A DNA stretch of 64,000 nt. It comes from a virus. Positions within the stretch are counted from its first letter, which is position 1; each line of letters opens with the position of its first letter. The DNA lies in IMG/VR virus record IMGVR_UViG_3300024520_000050, positions 1 to 64,000 of that record; one strand, given 5' to 3'. Below are positions 7,224-50,625 of this stretch, piece by piece. The translations under genes and the position numbers were made by a program. Below the pieces are notes generated by a model. That model had not been told where the DNA came from. It saw only the letters and a list, made by a program, of their open reading frames with translations, and did not search any database.

Positions 7224-8282
7224 TTATTTAAATTTTCTAAAGAACATGTCTTTAACTTTCAAAGAAATACTCTTATTTACTTGCTTTGGTTCTAATCCAT
7301 TATCAGCCATGACATCACCTTCTTCAAGTGTAATATCACTAATCATCCAACGAATAAATTCACCAAATTCTTTTCCCATGAATGGTTGTTCGGCACCGAA
7401 GATTTCTTTGATACCTTGATCAAATCTATTCTGTGTTACAGCATATGTTACGAACTTATTAATGCTTTCTAATACTTCTGTATCAACTGCAGCAATTGTC
7501 TTCACATTACTTACACTGTGCTTCTCGCCTTTCGTTTTGAAACGATACACTTGATTATTATAACTTACAGTCCATACTAAACCTTCACCTAATCCACCAT
7601 CAATACCTTGTTGTTTACACACAGGACACTCATCTTCAACCTGTTGAGTTAATTCTACAAACTTATTCTGTGCATATTCAGGTTGGGCAAAGTCAACTGT
7701 TACTTTAAAAGTAGGAAAGTCAAAGATATTAAATAATCTTTTACTTTCATTACCTGGAATCTTAGCAACATCTTCATCACTTAACCAGTAAGACTCACCT
7801 GTTGAATTATCCTCTGATGCTTTAGTTGGATCTGTTACTTTCACACTAAACATGTAGAAAGACTTCGGTAATCCTTGAAGACCAACGTTCTTTTGTATGT
7901 TCCCGCCAGCCCACTCGCCATAAATAGAAATAACCCAATAATCTGGAATGTTATATGCTTCACGAATAAAGAAGAATCTTTTATTCCATTCTTCTTTAAC
8001 AGAATCAGCCCAAAATGCAAATCCAGCATTATCTTTAAGTGGTGTTACAATATTCTTACGTGATTGAAAGTAAATATTACCTTCTCCATCTTGACATACA
8101 GCACCATTAGTACCATGTAATTTAATAGTTCCAGTAAATTCAAGTACTGGTTTTGGAAGTGAACCATCATAAATAGGATCACCATTTTCATCCAAGCCCA
8201 CGAATGTAGCTTGCATACAAATATCACGGATAATGTTCCGGAATTGTGGGATTTTAGGATATGCTGAATGTTTACTTTTCAT
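7224..8282 (-). CDS. RNA ligase (nucleotidyltransferase superfamily), 352 aa
   Basis: Motif I with the catalytic lysine is clear: TIKLHGTNGAV with Lys54. Further nucleotidyltransferase motifs are YGEWAGGNIQ (motif IIIa type), EGLVW (motif IV) and FKTKGEKHS (motif V). This fits T4 Rnl2-like RNA ligases, which join nicked RNA through an enzyme-AMP intermediate. A CPVCKQQG pair between motifs suggests a small metal site, though its partner Cys are not obvious. In phages such ligases repair tRNAs cut by host defences. The gene lies beside a tRNA-like element, but no polynucleotide kinase/phosphatase is seen in this window. Confidence 0.85.
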   Translation of the reverse strand: MKSKHSAYPKIPQFRNIIRDICMQATFVGLDENGDPIYDGSLPKPVLEFTGTIKLHGTNGAVCQDGEGNIYFQSRKNIVTPLKDNAGFAFWADSVKEEWNKRFFFIREAYNIPDYWVISIYGEWAGGNIQKNVGLQGLPKSFYMFSVKVTDPTKASEDNSTGESYWLSDEDVAKIPGNESKRLFNIFDFPTFKVTVDFAQPEYAQNKFVELTQQVEDECPVCKQQGIDGGLGEGLVWTVSYNNQVYRFKTKGEKHSVSNVKTIAAVDTEVLESINKFVTYAVTQNRFDQGIKEIFGAEQPFMGKEFGEFIRWMISDITLEEGDVMADNGLEPKQVNKSISLKVKDMFFRKFK

Positions 8283-17064: not shown

Positions 17065-17109
17065 GATATGTAAATTAAGTTTTGTTTAAAAATAAGATTC
17101 TAAATAAAA

Positions 17110-17309
17110 ATAATGTTTCACATCACTAACCTGCTACGGCTAACAATAACAAATTGGTATGAATGAGTAGTGTCAATTTATTGCACTATATATCTCATTA
17201 TGATAACGATTTGCGACACGAATTTGTGCCTTGAGCTCCGTTATTATCACTCGTTTAGTGATAACCTAACTACCGTATTGTAGTTAGAGGTCTAAGCCAT
17301 TACAGCCAA
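17110..17309 (-). ncRNA. structured intergenic region upstream of the exported protein gene
   Basis: The gap at 17065-17309 has no gene. Two strong hairpins occur back to back: TTATCACT-cgttt-AGTGATAA (17244-17264) and CTAACTAC-cgtatt-GTAGTTAG (17266-17287). Weaker pairings such as AAATTG/CAATTT lie further left. It resembles the closed-stem arrays of other gaps. Confidence 0.4.
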
Positions 17310-17483
17310 TCATTTATCTTCTTTTACATATGCTGGTATGATACTCCATAATCTATGAGTTCTAGTTTGAACTATATTTTCCATACCTTTCTTTGCATCT
17401 TCTTCTGTTTCAAAAGTGTCGTGTAATTTAGTTCCATTTGGAATGGTGTGTATACTAAATACACCAAATAATTTCTTTAACAT
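17310..17483 (-). CDS. hypothetical protein, 57 aa
   Basis: A short leftward frame with normal codon use and the usual ATAAATTATG leader. The product (MLKKLFGVFSIHTIPNGTKL, later EDAKKGMENIV and RLWSIIPAYVKEDK) looks like a small mixed alpha/beta protein. A 13-codon frame (17487-17528, MDKQELEQLNEIK) ends four bases upstream and could be a leader peptide. Function unknown. Confidence 0.55.
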   Translation of the reverse strand: MLKKLFGVFSIHTIPNGTKLHDTFETEEDAKKGMENIVQTRTHRLWSIIPAYVKEDK

Positions 17484-17549
17484 AATTTATTTTATTTCAT
17501 TTAATTGTTCTAATTCTTGTTTATCCATAGTTATTAATTTAAAAATAAA

Positions 17550-18205
17550 GACATCACTTTAGCCGGGAACTCCATCCTATCTGTCACTAAAGTTGTTAAT
17601 AAATTACTCCCGCACTTGGTATGATAGAAGTTGCTTATGGTACAAGCAGTACCACTTCTATACTAGGCATGTCGTTTACGGATGAGAAAGCTTCTTCATC
17701 TTGCCGATAATTTATCAACTGATGTCCTTATGCTAAAATCATCTAACTAAGTTAAATGACTTCGTTTCTCCTTCAACACATGGTTGATGAGATAAAATGT
17801 AAAGCCCACATCAAATGGTACGAACAAAATCTTACTTTACATTAAATAAACACGTTCTTCAGATGTATTATTGCTTGGATGTCAGTTCGACTAACACCAC
17901 TCGTTGCCCCATCCTTGGGTAATTCAAACGTGTTATATCAAAAAAATTAAATCAATCACTGCTTTTAGACGCACTTAGTCTTCTCTAGCGACGGTACTCA
18001 GCAATGGTTTGAGTAGACTCCTCTTCATGATTTAATTTATATTATTCCCTGTCTTGCAATTGAATGATATTCGGAATTTACTCTAGAATAGTCCTATCAT
18101 CTGAACTCAAGTGGGTAGCGCCCAAGCATTGCTTTCCGCCTGATGAGTAATCTCAATCTCGGTGTCATGATACTTCAAAACTTGTTAGTTCAGCAGGGAA
18201 TTATA
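17550..18205 (-). ncRNA. head-to-tail array of six closed-stem RNA modules
   Basis: No gene fits here. Six units follow each other, each closed by a stem: GACATCA/TGATGTC (17550-17556, 17720-17726), TCATCtAAC/GTTGATGA (17739-17747, 17783-17790), AATGTAAAG/CTTTACATT (17796-17804, 17835-17843), AACACGTT/AACGTGTT (17849-17856, 17927-17934), AATTAAATCA/TGATTTAATT (17945-17954, 18028-18037), ATTCCCTG/CAGGGAAT (18044-18051, 18194-18201). The first contains further helices: 17595-17605 with 17709-17719, and ATAGAAGT/ACTTCTAT enclosing GGTAC/GTACC. One A.C mismatch in it becomes G.U on the - strand. Confidence 0.55.
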
Positions 18206-18517
18206 TTATCCACTTACATGGTTTGCTTCAATTGGATTATCCATTTCATAATCTTTTAATAGATTCTTAAACTCTTCTTTCCAACCATAAAATACGTGAA
18301 ATGGAGTATAATTCTCAGGATCTGTCCATTCTTTAATCCATGCTTTAAAATGGTCAAAATCAATACTCTCGTCAATTGAAATAACTTCATTAATAATTGC
18401 ATCCGATTCTGGATTTGAGTCTGTAGGCATGAAGAATAGAGTATCTTTATGTACGAATACAAGTTGATACCAATCTGAGAATCCATTTGAATTCTTTTGT
18501 TTAGCTAGTAATTTCAT
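18206..18517 (-). CDS. hypothetical protein, 103 aa
   Basis: Soluble protein with strands at the N-terminus (WYQLVFVHKDTLFFMP), an acidic middle (ISIDESIDFDHFKAWIKEW) and a helical end. No family recognised. It begins just upstream of the module array, so the array lies in its 3' region on the leftward transcript. Confidence 0.65.
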   Translation of the reverse strand: MKLLAKQKNSNGFSDWYQLVFVHKDTLFFMPTDSNPESDAIINEVISIDESIDFDHFKAWIKEWTDPENYTPFHVFYGWKEEFKNLLKDYEMDNPIEANHVSG

Positions 18518-19420: not shown

Positions 19421-19738
19421 TTACATGAAAGGATTCTTTAATTCATCTATCATGTGATCGAACGCTTCTAATTTACCTACTCCATCTACACCCCAAAATA
19501 CTCCACTATAGATTATCCAAACTTCAGATTTACTCATCTTTATTTTATATTCTCCTAAATTTAAAATAAAGATGAAATGTTTCCCAATTATATTAAACTT
19601 AAACTCATTCCACAACAATTCCATTAATTCTACATCAATTAATCCACGTCCCTCACTAATTTTAAACGCTAATCTACGTGTTGCTACGTCTGGCGAACAA
19701 AGTAGGCTATATAAATTCTTTAATTCTAATTTAGTCAT
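19421..19738 (-). CDS. LHQLL-family paralogue, LHQLL subgroup, 105 aa
   Basis: The module is typical: MTKLELKNLYSLLCSPDVAT, then LAFKISEGRGLIDVELMELL and W. A beta-rich middle (FIFILNLGEYKIKM) and a short final helix follow. The start at 19738 overlaps the end of a 39-codon frame by 8 bp. Function unknown. Confidence 0.75.
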   Translation of the reverse strand: MTKLELKNLYSLLCSPDVATRRLAFKISEGRGLIDVELMELLWNEFKFNIIGKHFIFILNLGEYKIKMSKSEVWIIYSGVFWGVDGVGKLEAFDHMIDELKNPFM

Positions 19739-19850
19739 GTTTCATCTCTTTAGGAGGATATGATGCAAATACATTTCGTGATGGTACAGTCAATCTTATT
19801 AAACCAAAACCTAAATGTTTAAATTCTAACGGACATCTTCTATTTTTCAT
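19731..19850 (-). CDS. small basic peptide, 39 aa
   Basis: A short frame between two paralogues with product MKNRRCPLEFKHLGFGLIRL followed by a Pro/Tyr-containing end. It has an A/T-rich leader and overlaps the next start by 8 bp, as real genes here do. No family recognised. Could be a small basic binding peptide, or a chance frame. Confidence 0.45.
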   Translation of the reverse strand: MKNRRCPLEFKHLGFGLIRLTVPSRNVFASYPPKEMKHD

Positions 19851-19856
19851 ATTTTA

Positions 19857-19943
19857 TTATTTACAATCACATTTCCACCAAATTAATTTACATCTTTGAC
19901 AGTATTTACCTGTCCACGTTTTTAATCTTTTAAGTAATTTCAT
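19857..19943 (-). CDS. 28-residue Cys-rich peptide
   Basis: The peptide starts MKLLKRLKTWTGKYCQRCKL and continues with a W-W-K-C-D-C segment, giving four Cys as CxxC and CxC, a plausible single zinc site. The ATG overlaps the stop of the upstream paralogue in ATGA, as expected for coupled translation. Confidence 0.5.
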   Translation of the reverse strand: MKLLKRLKTWTGKYCQRCKLIWWKCDCK

Positions 19944-20242
19944 TTGTTTAATATTTTTATTAATGCTTTAATACGACTTTTCTTTGTACCACAATGACCT
20001 ATATTATTCCACATTAGTGACCAATGAGTAGAACCAATATGTATATTTTGTTTTAATTTACAATATCCAAAATCTAATTGAGGTGTATCAAAGTAATCAG
20101 TCTTAATAGCAAAATTATCCCACATTAATTCAATCAATTCTTTATCTGTATATCCAAACCCTTCTGCTATTTTAAATGCTAATTTAGCTGTATTTTGACC
20201 ACATAATAAATCATGTAAACCATTTAATTCTTTGTCTGTCAT
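19940..20242 (-). CDS. LHQLL-family paralogue, LHQLL subgroup, 100 aa
   Basis: Module: MTDKELNGLHDLLCGQNTAK, then LAFKIAEGFGYTDKELIELM and W. A middle with Trp/His strands and a short final helix (KALIKILNK) follow. It is the most consensus-like member, so it serves well as a search query. It abuts the next paralogue by one shared base. Confidence 0.8.
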   Translation of the reverse strand: MTDKELNGLHDLLCGQNTAKLAFKIAEGFGYTDKELIELMWDNFAIKTDYFDTPQLDFGYCKLKQNIHIGSTHWSLMWNNIGHCGTKKSRIKALIKILNK

Positions 20243-20574
20243 TATTTCATTTTTGCAATACTATGTAATCTACCATGTCGTAGCCATTTGATTACTATTT
20301 TAAACACTCTTTCATTATTTAAGTAATAACATATTGGATAATTCTGTGTATTGTGATATTCAAGCTTCCAACAATGCTCATCATTAGTAAATAATCTAAT
20401 CATCTTTAATTTTCCAAACTCTAAGATATAATTACTAGGTCGCATCTTACACCAAAGTAACTTAATAAGTTGTTCATCAGTTAATTCATGAGCTTCTATT
20501 ATTTTAAGTGCTAATTTGAATGTTGTAGATGAACATAGTAATTGATGCAAATTATTTAATTCTTTCTTTGTCAT
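20242..20574 (-). CDS. LHQLL-family paralogue, LHQLL subgroup, 110 aa
   Basis: Module: MTKKELNNLHQLLCSSTTFK, then LALKIIEAHELTDEQLIKLL and W. Downstream is a Lys/Trp strand region and a basic C-terminal helix (VIKWLRHGRLHSIAKMK). It overlaps the next upstream paralogue by 23 bp. Confidence 0.8.
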   Translation of the reverse strand: MTKKELNNLHQLLCSSTTFKLALKIIEAHELTDEQLIKLLWCKMRPSNYILEFGKLKMIRLFTNDEHCWKLEYHNTQNYPICYYLNNERVFKIVIKWLRHGRLHSIAKMK

Positions 20575-20941
20575 CTTTTAATGCTTTTACTAAATATTTA
20601 ATTAATTTTCTAACAACTTTATCAAATTGATATTGTTCACTTTTATTACCTTTGTAAGTATTTGTATCAATCCAATCTCCATTCATGTGAATTTCATATA
20701 CTATGAAACTATAATTAATACGCCAAGTAATACTCATATCTAAACCTAAAAAATATACATGAAGTAAATGAACACCATTATTGGGAATCTCATTTCTAAC
20801 AACCAAATTAGCTATATCACATAATTCCCAACCATGTTGTTGAGCTAGTAATATACCTAATCTATTTGCATCACCATTGTTCGCCAGCAGTAATTGCTTG
20901 ATGGAATCTGTTGTTTCTTGTGGTATCTTACTAGTTTTCAT
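20552..20941 (-). CDS. LHQLL-family paralogue, AIGQG-like subgroup, 129 aa
   Basis: Module in residues about 10-48: TTDSIKQLLLANNGDANRLG, then ILLAQQHGWELCDIANLVV. A beta-rich middle (YFLGLDMSITWRINYSFIVY) and a long basic C-terminal helix (VVRKLIKYLVKALKDDKE) follow. It shows both the LHQLL-type and AIGQG-type features, so it links the subgroups. Confidence 0.7.
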   Translation of the reverse strand: MKTSKIPQETTDSIKQLLLANNGDANRLGILLAQQHGWELCDIANLVVRNEIPNNGVHLLHVYFLGLDMSITWRINYSFIVYEIHMNGDWIDTNTYKGNKSEQYQFDKVVRKLIKYLVKALKDDKERIK

Positions 20942-20987
20942 ATCTTTATGTTGTTAAAATGTCCGTCGCCGAACAAAGTTAAACCAA

Positions 20988-21365
20988 TTATTTATGTTTC
21001 ATGCAACGAGTTGACATCCAACCTGAAGTATTTAGTTCTCCCTCATCTCCACATTCATCACATATTTTATAACTATCTTCTTCTGCTTTAGATATTAACT
21101 CATGTACTTCATCAGTAGCTGAATTAATATAAAATCTAAGTCCACCAAACTTCTCTTTACATTGACATAATTGTTTATCCCAATCTAATTTGATTAACTC
21201 TTCGATTAATTCTTTGACTAATCCTAACCATCCGTTACCGATTTCGAAGTAGTATCTGGACATTATTAGGTCTCTATCCGGATAAAATCCGTTGACTAGA
21301 CCGTTTATTGACTGAAGGAATGTGTTAAACTCATCATCAGTCATGTAGTATTTATTTGTATTCAT
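20988..21365 (-). CDS. conserved phage protein with C-terminal zinc ribbon, 125 aa
   Basis: The second half shows KEKFGGLRFYIN, then ICDECGDEGELNTSGW and an end with Cys and His (RCMKHK). This is the arrangement of a common phage/bacterial protein of unknown function, in which KxKFGxLRFY is followed by a Cys4-type ribbon. A metal-binding role is likely; the cellular role is unknown. Confidence 0.75.
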   Translation of the reverse strand: MNTNKYYMTDDEFNTFLQSINGLVNGFYPDRDLIMSRYYFEIGNGWLGLVKELIEELIKLDWDKQLCQCKEKFGGLRFYINSATDEVHELISKAEEDSYKICDECGDEGELNTSGWMSTRCMKHK

Positions 21366-21421
21366 ATCTCTTATTTGTTAGTATTCATTTCAACCAAAGC
21401 ATAACGAAGTTAAACCTAAAA

Positions 21422-21742
21422 TTATAAAATGCTATCTCTTATTAAATATCTTACAAGAGCTTCAAACACATGACTTTGCGGCCATGGAATATCTTCAGTA
21501 CCATCTCTATAACCTATAGGCCAAATTTTCCAAGCGTGCCCATTAATATATTTATGTCGTAGTTTCATTAAAGTGTACCTCTTAAAATTAATATGGCGTC
21601 CTCTTACATTTAACTTACACCAAATCAACTTAAGTAATTCTACATTAGTTAAGCCATGTCCTTCTGCAATCTTAAATGCTACAGATGATGTATGTTGATA
21701 ACATAATAACTGATGTAGATTTATAAGTTCTTGTTTAGTCAT
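21422..21742 (-). CDS. LHQLL-family paralogue, LHQLL subgroup, 106 aa
   Basis: Module: MTKQELINLHQLLCYQHTSS, then VAFKIAEGHGLTNVELLKLI and W. The frame is open upstream, but the ATG at 21742 aligns with the starts of other members and has the leader TTAATTACTATG. A basic beta-rich middle and a terminal helix (VFEALVRYLIRDSIL) complete it. Confidence 0.8.
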   Translation of the reverse strand: MTKQELINLHQLLCYQHTSSVAFKIAEGHGLTNVELLKLIWCKLNVRGRHINFKRYTLMKLRHKYINGHAWKIWPIGYRDGTEDIPWPQSHVFEALVRYLIRDSIL

Positions 21743-25618: not shown

Positions 25619-25661
25619 TGTTTAATAAGTTTAAAGTGTTAATAATAAAGTTCTTTGAATA

Positions 25662-26173
25662 AATAAATTGAACGCTGCTGCATAGCCACTATGGACTAGT
25701 CAATTATTATAATGCTACGGAGTTACCATCTACACATACAACCTAATTAAGGTTTACGCTGACTGTCATCACGGCTTCAATTTATTAACTGTTATACAAA
25801 GAAGTGCTTGAGTTTTAGGAACATTAGCCTCTCTTCTTTGGTAAATATAATGGTTGTCGTTACCAACGGTAGCTCTCCACTATTATGCGTCTTCACGAGG
25901 CATAATAATTTCAATTACTAGAGTACTACAGTAGCTCCATACATTCGGCTTTCATCTATATCCGAAGGAGGTGATGCTCAAGCTATCCACGTGCTGTAAT
26001 AATTAAAACATGATTATTAGTCTTATTGACGTTGCTAATTTGGGATTCGAACCCTGCCCGATCCATTTCTGGTAGGAACATTCCAATCATCTAATGTTGG
26101 TAAAGCACTAATCTTACATTAGTCTCGTGGTCTTTTTGATCTATATCCCACTGTACTGATTGTTTTAATTATT
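25662..26173 (-). ncRNA. array of closed-stem RNA modules, one with a T-arm-like hairpin
   Basis: The gap 25619-26211 holds no gene. Units are closed by AATAAATTGAA/TTCAATTTATT (25662-25672, 25776-25786), CAAAGAAG/CTTCTTTG (25797-25804, 25833-25840), TATTATGC/GCATAATA (25881-25888, 25900-25907) and AATAATTAAAACA/TGTTTTAATTATT (25998-26010, 26161-26173; 13 perfect pairs). The last, 176 nt long, contains GGG-TTCGAAT-CCC on the - strand near 26042-26056, like a tRNA T arm. Confidence 0.55.
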
Positions 26174-26211
26174 CATCAATGATGTTTCAAGGCTATTATA
26201 GCACTGACAAC

Positions 26212-26565: not shown

Positions 26566-26629
26566 AATTTTAATTTTACATGAAATAAATAACAGACATT
26601 AACTCAAAGTCAAGTCCGCGCCACATCTA

Positions 26630-49062: not shown

Positions 49063-50625
49063 ATGCATAAAACAACAAGTACAATATTAACTGGAGTTAA
49101 TCTTCTGGTTGATACTGTTAAACAAACACTAGGAACAAAAGGTCGTACTATTTTATTTAATGATGAGAACAATAGAACTCACATTACTAAAGATGGTGTG
49201 ACTGTTGCTCGTCATATCTTTTCAGAAGATGATTATGAGAATATGATAATTACTGTATTACGTGAAGCATCACTTAAGACTATGAAGTCAAGTGGAGACG
49301 GCACTACAACAACAATGATACTTGCTCAATATATTATTAATGAAGGACTTAAATTACTTGATGAAGGATTAAGTTTTTATGAAATGAGTCGTCAAGTTGA
49401 TGAAGCTGTCAAAGATGTAGTAGATTATATTAATAATACTTCAATTAAAATAGAAGATAATCAAGAATTACTTCGTGAAATTGCAGCTATTTCTTCTAAC
49501 GATGAAAAGCTTGGAGATTACATTTATTCAATCATAGAAGAGATTGGATTATATGGAGATATTGAAGTTAAAGAATCTCAATACTCTGAAACTCGTAAGA
49601 TTCAAACTAAAGGAATGAAGTTACATAAAGGTTGGATGGAGAACTTTATGATGAATGATCCACGTGAATTAAAATTTAAAGCAAATGATTGCCATATTCT
49701 TATTATTGATGATATCATTCAAGCTATTACTGATATTGATCAGTATATTAGACACCTTAATGGAAAACCGTTGGTAGTATTCTGTGATGAGGTTACAGAT
49801 ATTACATTATCCCAAATTCAAAAATGGATGAGTACTACAGGTTATCCTGCATGTTTCGTCCACAATGATGGACACGGAGAACGTAAACAAATATTAATGA
49901 ATGATCTTGCTGCATTAACATCAGCATATGTTATTTCTGCACAAGATCCATTTGATCCTGATAATTTAGGATTCACTGGACAGATACAAGTTGGTGAATG
50001 GCATACATCTATATTAGATGGTGAAAGTGATACGGATATGATTGAAGCTATTACATATGATATTCAAGAAATATTAAATGATGATGCAAATGATGATGAA
50101 ACATTAATTACTAATGTAGATCGTAAGTTTCATAAAAAACGCTTAGCTAATTTAACAGGTGGATTAGCAGTAATTCATGTGGGTGGACGTACACAAATGG
50201 AGATGAAAGAATTGAAGGATAGATTTGATGATGCTGTATTGGCTGTAGGAAGTGCTATTAAACAAGGAGTTAATGTTGGGGGTGGTTCTACTTATATTAA
50301 CTGTCAGAAGATACTAAATAAAAGATATAAGGAATCTAAAGGTAGAGGATATAAATTAATTATAGATTCACTTGATTCCCCATTCAAACAATTATTAACT
50401 AATGCTGATCTATCTAGTCAATTTGGATTTTATAAGAATCAACTTACTAAAGGTAAAGCATTAGATCTTCGTGATAATAAATTATATAACCTTGCAACAA
50501 CAAAATATACAGTGTATGATCCATCATCTGTATTGATTGATTCGTTAATTAATGCAACTGCTGTAGCAAAATCATTACTATCTATAAAAGATGTACTTTT
50601 TGATGGAAAGAAACTAGGCGGTTAG
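49063..50625 (+). CDS. groEL-like: GroEL-like chaperonin, 520 aa
   Basis: The sequence follows GroEL along its length. There is the nucleotide-binding TLGTKGRT (usually LGPKGR), ITKDGVTVAR, the ATPase motif SSGDGTTTTM with Asp79, and in the second equatorial part GGLAVIHVGGRTQMEMKELK with RFDDAV. A GVNVGGGSTY segment follows. Group I chaperonins fold proteins in a cage. Encoded between portal and scaffold, it probably folds capsid proteins. No GroES-like gene is seen in the window. A tandem CTAA repeat precedes the start. Confidence 0.85.
   Translation: MHKTTSTILTGVNLLVDTVKQTLGTKGRTILFNDENNRTHITKDGVTVARHIFSEDDYENMIITVLREASLKTMKSSGDGTTTTMILAQYIINEGLKLLDEGLSFYEMSRQVDEAVKDVVDYINNTSIKIEDNQELLREIAAISSNDEKLGDYIYSIIEEIGLYGDIEVKESQYSETRKIQTKGMKLHKGWMENFMMNDPRELKFKANDCHILIIDDIIQAITDIDQYIRHLNGKPLVVFCDEVTDITLSQIQKWMSTTGYPACFVHNDGHGERKQILMNDLAALTSAYVISAQDPFDPDNLGFTGQIQVGEWHTSILDGESDTDMIEAITYDIQEILNDDANDDETLITNVDRKFHKKRLANLTGGLAVIHVGGRTQMEMKELKDRFDDAVLAVGSAIKQGVNVGGGSTYINCQKILNKRYKESKGRGYKLIIDSLDSPFKQLLTNADLSSQFGFYKNQLTKGKALDLRDNKLYNLATTKYTVYDPSSVLIDSLINATAVAKSLLSIKDVLFDGKKLGG

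Follow-up and report, generated by a model that had tools for sequence, protein, structure and literature searches.

The gene-free stretch at 17545-18206 (minus strand, about 660 nt) in the 64-kb window analysed here, which is the first part of a virus record of 178,400 bases, probably encodes a large structured phage RNA of an orphan family, as judged from its predicted fold. The stretch is non-coding and raised in GC content, its fold is significant, robust to the choice of boundaries and better on the minus strand, and it matches no known RNA family. The first-pass annotation had described this region as a head-to-tail array of six RNA modules, each sealed by its own closing stem. Its central observation, a structured RNA on the minus strand, was right and is supported by both global and ensemble folding, which are better grounds than the counting of stems.

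The terminase of the record is ~28% identical to those of crAss-like phages. The GC content of the record is 31%, and open frames cover about 90% of it. The stretch lies inside an arm (~0-36 kb) with almost all of its genes on the minus strand. The stretch, the domains of its predicted fold and its neighbours are as follows:

18206-18517, minus strand: upstream neighbour gene, 103 aa, no known family (ORF list, profile search)
17545-18206, minus strand: whole candidate structured non-coding RNA, ~660 nt, seven exterior domains (ensemble folding, non-coding, GC)
18044-18201, minus strand: U1, 158 nt, 8-bp closing stem ATTCCCTG/CAGGGAAT (closing helix p 0.99)
18193-18101, minus strand: second stem of U1, 7 bp, CTGAACT/AGTTCAG (folding)
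17944-18038, minus strand: U2, 95 nt, 11-bp closing stem AAATTAAATCA/TGATTTAATTT (folding; unit z -2.4)
18006-17957, minus strand: inner stem of U2, CATTGCT/AGCAGTG (folding)
17849-17934, minus strand: U3, 86 nt, 9-bp closing stem AACACGTTT/GAACGTGTT (folding; unit z -2.5)
within 17849-17934, minus strand: inner hairpin of U3, TGTTAGT/ACTGACA (folding)
17796-17843, minus strand: U4, 48 nt, 10-bp closing stem AATGTAAAGT/GCTTTACATT (folding; unit z -2.2)
17767-17792, minus strand: U4b, small hairpin of 26 nt, TCTC.TCAAC/GTTGA..GAGA, 4+5 bp (p 0.95-0.99)
17735-17763, minus strand: U5, plain hairpin of 29 nt, 13 bp, 3-nt loop (unit z -5.1, 0/1000 shuffles)
17545-17731, minus strand: U6, 187 nt, 11-bp closing stem ATAAGGACATC/GATGTCTTTAT (unit z -3.3, 1/1000 shuffles)
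17719-17595, minus strand: stem enclosed in U6, 13 bp (folding)
17593-17556, minus strand: hairpin enclosed in U6, 8 bp (folding)
17484-17525, minus strand: downstream 13-codon ORF MDKQELEQLNEIK, start like that of a local small-protein family, MTKxELxNLHxLLC (alignment)
17310-17483, minus strand: next downstream neighbour ORF, 57 aa, no known family (ORF list, profile search)

In the predicted fold, the exterior domains follow one another in a linear chain with short single-stranded linkers, and their closing stems measure, in order from U1 to U6, 8, 11, 9, 10, 4+5, 13 and 11 bp. The chain of stem-closed units is therefore real, but it comprises seven exterior domains and not six, and the length of 7-10 bp given for the closing stems does not hold, because the computed stems reach 13 bp. 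A start at 17550, as originally drawn, cuts off the last stem, since unit 6 closes at 17545, and trimming the stretch in this way weakens the z-score of the fold from -2.8 to -2.0. U6 is the most complex domain, and U5 and U6 are the most significant when folded alone. 'Array' is the wrong word for this arrangement, because no domain is a copy of another. The units, whose lengths run from 26 to 187 nt, share no direct repeat, and nothing in the stretch is duplicated elsewhere in the 178-kb record, which excludes a repeat array.

The global minus-strand fold has an energy of -169 kcal/mol (z -2.8 against 400 dinucleotide shuffles). In an ensemble test in which pairs spanned up to 200 nt and helices of at least 7 bp at p>=0.8 were counted, the stretch yielded 12 robust helices (106 bp), compared with 2.7 (21.7 +/- 13 bp) in shuffled sequences, a value reached by none of the 200 shuffles (z -4.4). 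With 200-nt flanks, 12 helices were again obtained (105 bp). Among 396 windows sampled from the genome, the top value was 10 helices, found in the sole window that overlaps this stretch. The proposed minus-strand stems are present in the sequence, and the fold is better on that strand, the plus strand being moderately structured with 5 such helices. The stretch is thus folded beyond dinucleotide-shuffled sequence, a feature expected of functional structured RNAs in general.

The further claim that the stems exceed chance depends on how they are counted. Tiling with any stem of at least 7 bp gave a score of 99 against 91 +/- 11 in shuffles and was reached by 115 of the 500, so that the excess fails by stem counting but stands by ensemble folding. 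The comparison with shuffled sequence, which the annotation had set for itself beforehand, accordingly gave a divided answer: naive stem tiling was matched by shuffles, whereas the ensemble helices were not. The number of exterior branches is 7, and the base pairs in closing helices were reached by 0 of 400 shuffles; however, the branch count is unsafe as a statistic because small boundary shifts alter it. Both stem tiling and exterior-branch counts were judged to be poor statistics.

The absence of a coding frame was confirmed. The longest open stretch in any frame of 17545-18206 is 42 codons. Stop recoding is known in crAss-like phages, and the possibility of a changed code therefore had to be considered; reading TAG and/or TGA as sense opens no frame in the stretch, which rules out coding of this kind. 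The GC content of the stretch is 35%, compared with 26% in the short intergenic gaps, and most tRNA-bearing gaps of the same genome have 35-39%. In AT-rich genomes, gaps of raised GC content are a recognised sign of genes for structured RNAs. It is unlikely that 660 non-coding bases so folded lie idle in a record that is ~90% coding.

Comparison with Rfam at the gathering threshold revealed nothing credible in the stretch, and the sensitive mode, applied to a 671-base stretch at E<=10, gave no credible match either. As a control for the latter, a 451-base stretch containing the tRNA-Leu group I intron of this phage scored 59 bits (E 1.4e-14), although scans of whole 20-kb loci failed to find the same intron. 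Because the short-stretch control was positive, the negative result on the 671-base stretch is meaningful; less weight attaches to negative results from long scans. No tRNA or tRNA array was detected in 17545-18206 by ARAGORN or with RF00005. A group I catalytic intron is likewise a large folded RNA, but the RF00028 core was not recognised in the stretch, and a group I core suspected by eye in U2/U3 (AGACTAA, TTAGTC) was dropped, given the negative sensitive scan and its positive control.

The known kinds of RNA that come closest in size, host type and tRNA-rich setting are ROOL and GOLLD, although we do not claim membership of either. ROOL is a large non-coding RNA of phages and prophages with many stems, of which the env-120 example is 659 nt long; the env-38 example of GOLLD is 833 nt long, many GOLLD members exceed 800 nt, and both kinds are often encoded near tRNA islands (PMC12286853). 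The stretch resembles ROOL in size, in its many stems and in its occurrence in a phage with a tRNA island, but does not match the Rfam covariance model at E<=10. ROOL has multiple pseudoknots (P10, P13), whereas a crude single-sequence search for crossing helices among the unpaired parts found here one 5-bp helix, which is within chance. ROOL forms a homo-octameric RNA cage. The domains of the present RNA would be separate and follow one another in a line, which also sets it apart from ROOL. At least 20 tRNA genes are present in this phage; the nearest are ~6-7 kb from the structured stretch, and the tRNA island (150-174 kb of the record) is not adjacent to it, which is a further difference from ROOL. 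GOLLD, whose expression rises at phage lysis, is likewise a large phage-borne non-coding RNA of tRNA-bearing phages, but the stretch has no Rfam match to it, no conserved 3' domain was recognised, and the stretch is ~170 nt shorter than env-38.

No homologue of the stretch was found by blastn against 50,697 phage records, in IMG/VR scans with the neighbouring proteins and a mock translation of the RNA, or in the GTDB species genomes. Relatives of the terminase at 48-100% identity are present in IMG/VR, mostly as fragments; none of their whole records carries the RNA, and these records end before this arm. The records of RNA-ligase relatives do not carry it either. Two possible relatives of the early arm (L054, L055) have just one of the neighbouring proteins in common with it, the proteins adjoining the stretch have no relatives in IMG/VR, and the zone around the stretch is poorly conserved. 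Gene-free stretches of relatives (G013, G014, G018) showed no resemblance when folded, and several of them look like genes truncated at contig ends. Since the scan patterns were exact 8-residue stretches and blastn needs ~65-70% identity, the reach of these searches is limited to fairly close relatives, and the negatives mean that there is no close relative in these collections, and not that relatives do not exist.

The best explanation is one large multi-domain minus-strand RNA that is stable and acts as a structural RNA, a reading that we regard as evenly balanced between right and wrong; its expression, its persistence as a single product and any function are what we infer. The RNA would probably be transcribed together with the co-directional neighbouring genes of the minus-strand arm and be kept as a single stable product, the proposed reason for its stability being that every domain is closed. 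During infection, it may have a structural or scaffolding role, whether by itself, as a multimer or together with proteins, by analogy with what has been proposed for ROOL and GOLLD. Several findings count against a single RNA: the lack of a homologue in the collections searched and, in the crude search, of a pseudoknot beyond chance, the moderately structured plus strand, the distant tRNAs, the weak promoter matches and the absence of a terminator. The upstream sigma-70-like matches are weak and about as numerous as expected by chance, although promoters of Bacteroidota differ from the type scanned, and no minus-strand terminator was called at the end of the stretch.

Some of these features would also suit a polycistronic early mRNA in which the stretch serves as a structured spacer between cistrons or as a 3' untranslated region and no separate RNA acts. 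The stems could protect the upstream part of this mRNA, slow or stop read-through, or be cut by RNase and so separate upstream from downstream expression. The structure begins a few nucleotides past the stop codon of the 103-aa gene, between co-directional genes, and there is no convincing promoter of its own. However, 660 nt far exceeds what a spacer needs, the short spacers of this genome are AT-rich (26% GC), and a minus-strand terminator call at the end is lacking; we consider this explanation unlikely.

The stretch might also be a functionless remnant of genes or of a mobile element lost by recombination. Its 3' end lies about 20 nt ahead of the start of the 13-codon ORF MDKQELEQLNEIK, which is probably a gene remnant, judging from its N-terminus. 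This N-terminus matches the start of a neighbouring paralogue family, consisting of four small proteins that begin with MTKxELxNLHxLLC (window 19421-21742, minus strand). The ORF would thus be a truncated copy of a member of this local family, which points to a past rearrangement just downstream of the structured stretch, and the poor conservation of the zone, with neighbouring proteins that lack IMG/VR relatives, also fits a remnant. Decay should nevertheless leave AT-rich, unstructured DNA, whereas here the GC content is raised and the fold exceeds that of all shuffles, which makes a remnant quite improbable. It is very doubtful that the stretch is a precursor of six or seven separate small RNAs, released by cuts between the units, for instance within a long hairpin like U5. 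In favour of this, the domains are independent, the linkers short and single-stranded and U5 a 13-bp hairpin. The units, however, share neither sequence nor a common end signal and vary in length between 26 and 187 nt, and a single large RNA would be just as likely to have independent domains.

With regard to the single large RNA, a more specific version is that it represents a new family of large phage RNAs, unrelated to ROOL, GOLLD and OLE, with independently closed domains strung in a line, and stands among several structured RNAs of an RNA-rich phage. We put this forward tentatively, as a possible but somewhat doubtful reading. If it is true, the phage would have an unusually RNA-rich biology; it also possesses an RNA ligase as well as tRNA genes that carry an intron, are nested or are possibly permuted. 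ROOL and GOLLD, as large phage RNAs, are without known function, and each unrelated example widens the question of their use; the present one, if genuine, would extend that question to the crAss-like phages, which are among the most abundant groups of viruses. Its orphan status also suggests that catalogues based on covariation miss RNAs confined to single lineages.

Several tRNA genes of this phage are unusual, all of them on the minus strand. The tRNA-Leu(UAA) gene (L052:12033-12338; G000 156033-156338) carries a 220-nt group I intron (RF00028) at the anticodon loop, an arrangement known from cyanobacteria and plastids and seen here in a crAss-like phage. A tRNA-Lys-like gene (L053:2571-2800; G000 166571-166800) has a 155-nt insert in the anticodon loop, which itself holds a second tRNA-like gene (L053:2640-2764, RF00005 35 bits), so that one tRNA is nested in another. 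A third locus (L053:3558-3641; G000 167558-167641) is a candidate permuted tRNA, in which the 3' half, made up of T-arm and acceptor strand, precedes the 5' half by 16 nt; the acceptor strands match perfectly over 7 bp. Once the halves are put back in the usual order, ARAGORN recognises a tRNA at a lowered threshold, its anticodon loop being unclear. The gene for an RNA ligase of type 2 (PF09414) is located at window 7224-8282 (minus strand), and its product might serve the repair or joining of these odd tRNAs.

Other gene-free gaps on the minus strand also show signs of structure. Those at 17065-17309 and 26566-26784 fold with z ~ -4.4 (0/100 shuffles) and belong to no known family. Two further gaps with raised GC content, at window 25619-26211 (593 nt) and L052:17625-18049 (425 nt), show a moderate folding signal and gave no credible Rfam or blastn match; it is possible that they are further large RNAs. 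The sequence GGCGCGGAC, which was not found in IMG/VR, occurs three times in intergenic gaps (window 382 and 18961, plus strand; 26614-26622, minus strand), where chance expects none, and ATGGCGCGGACTATGTATTT is common to two of the three copies. Finally, a chaperonin gene (Cpn60/GroEL, PF00118, E 3.7e-44) is present in the structural gene block (window 49063-50625, plus strand) and is conserved in related records.
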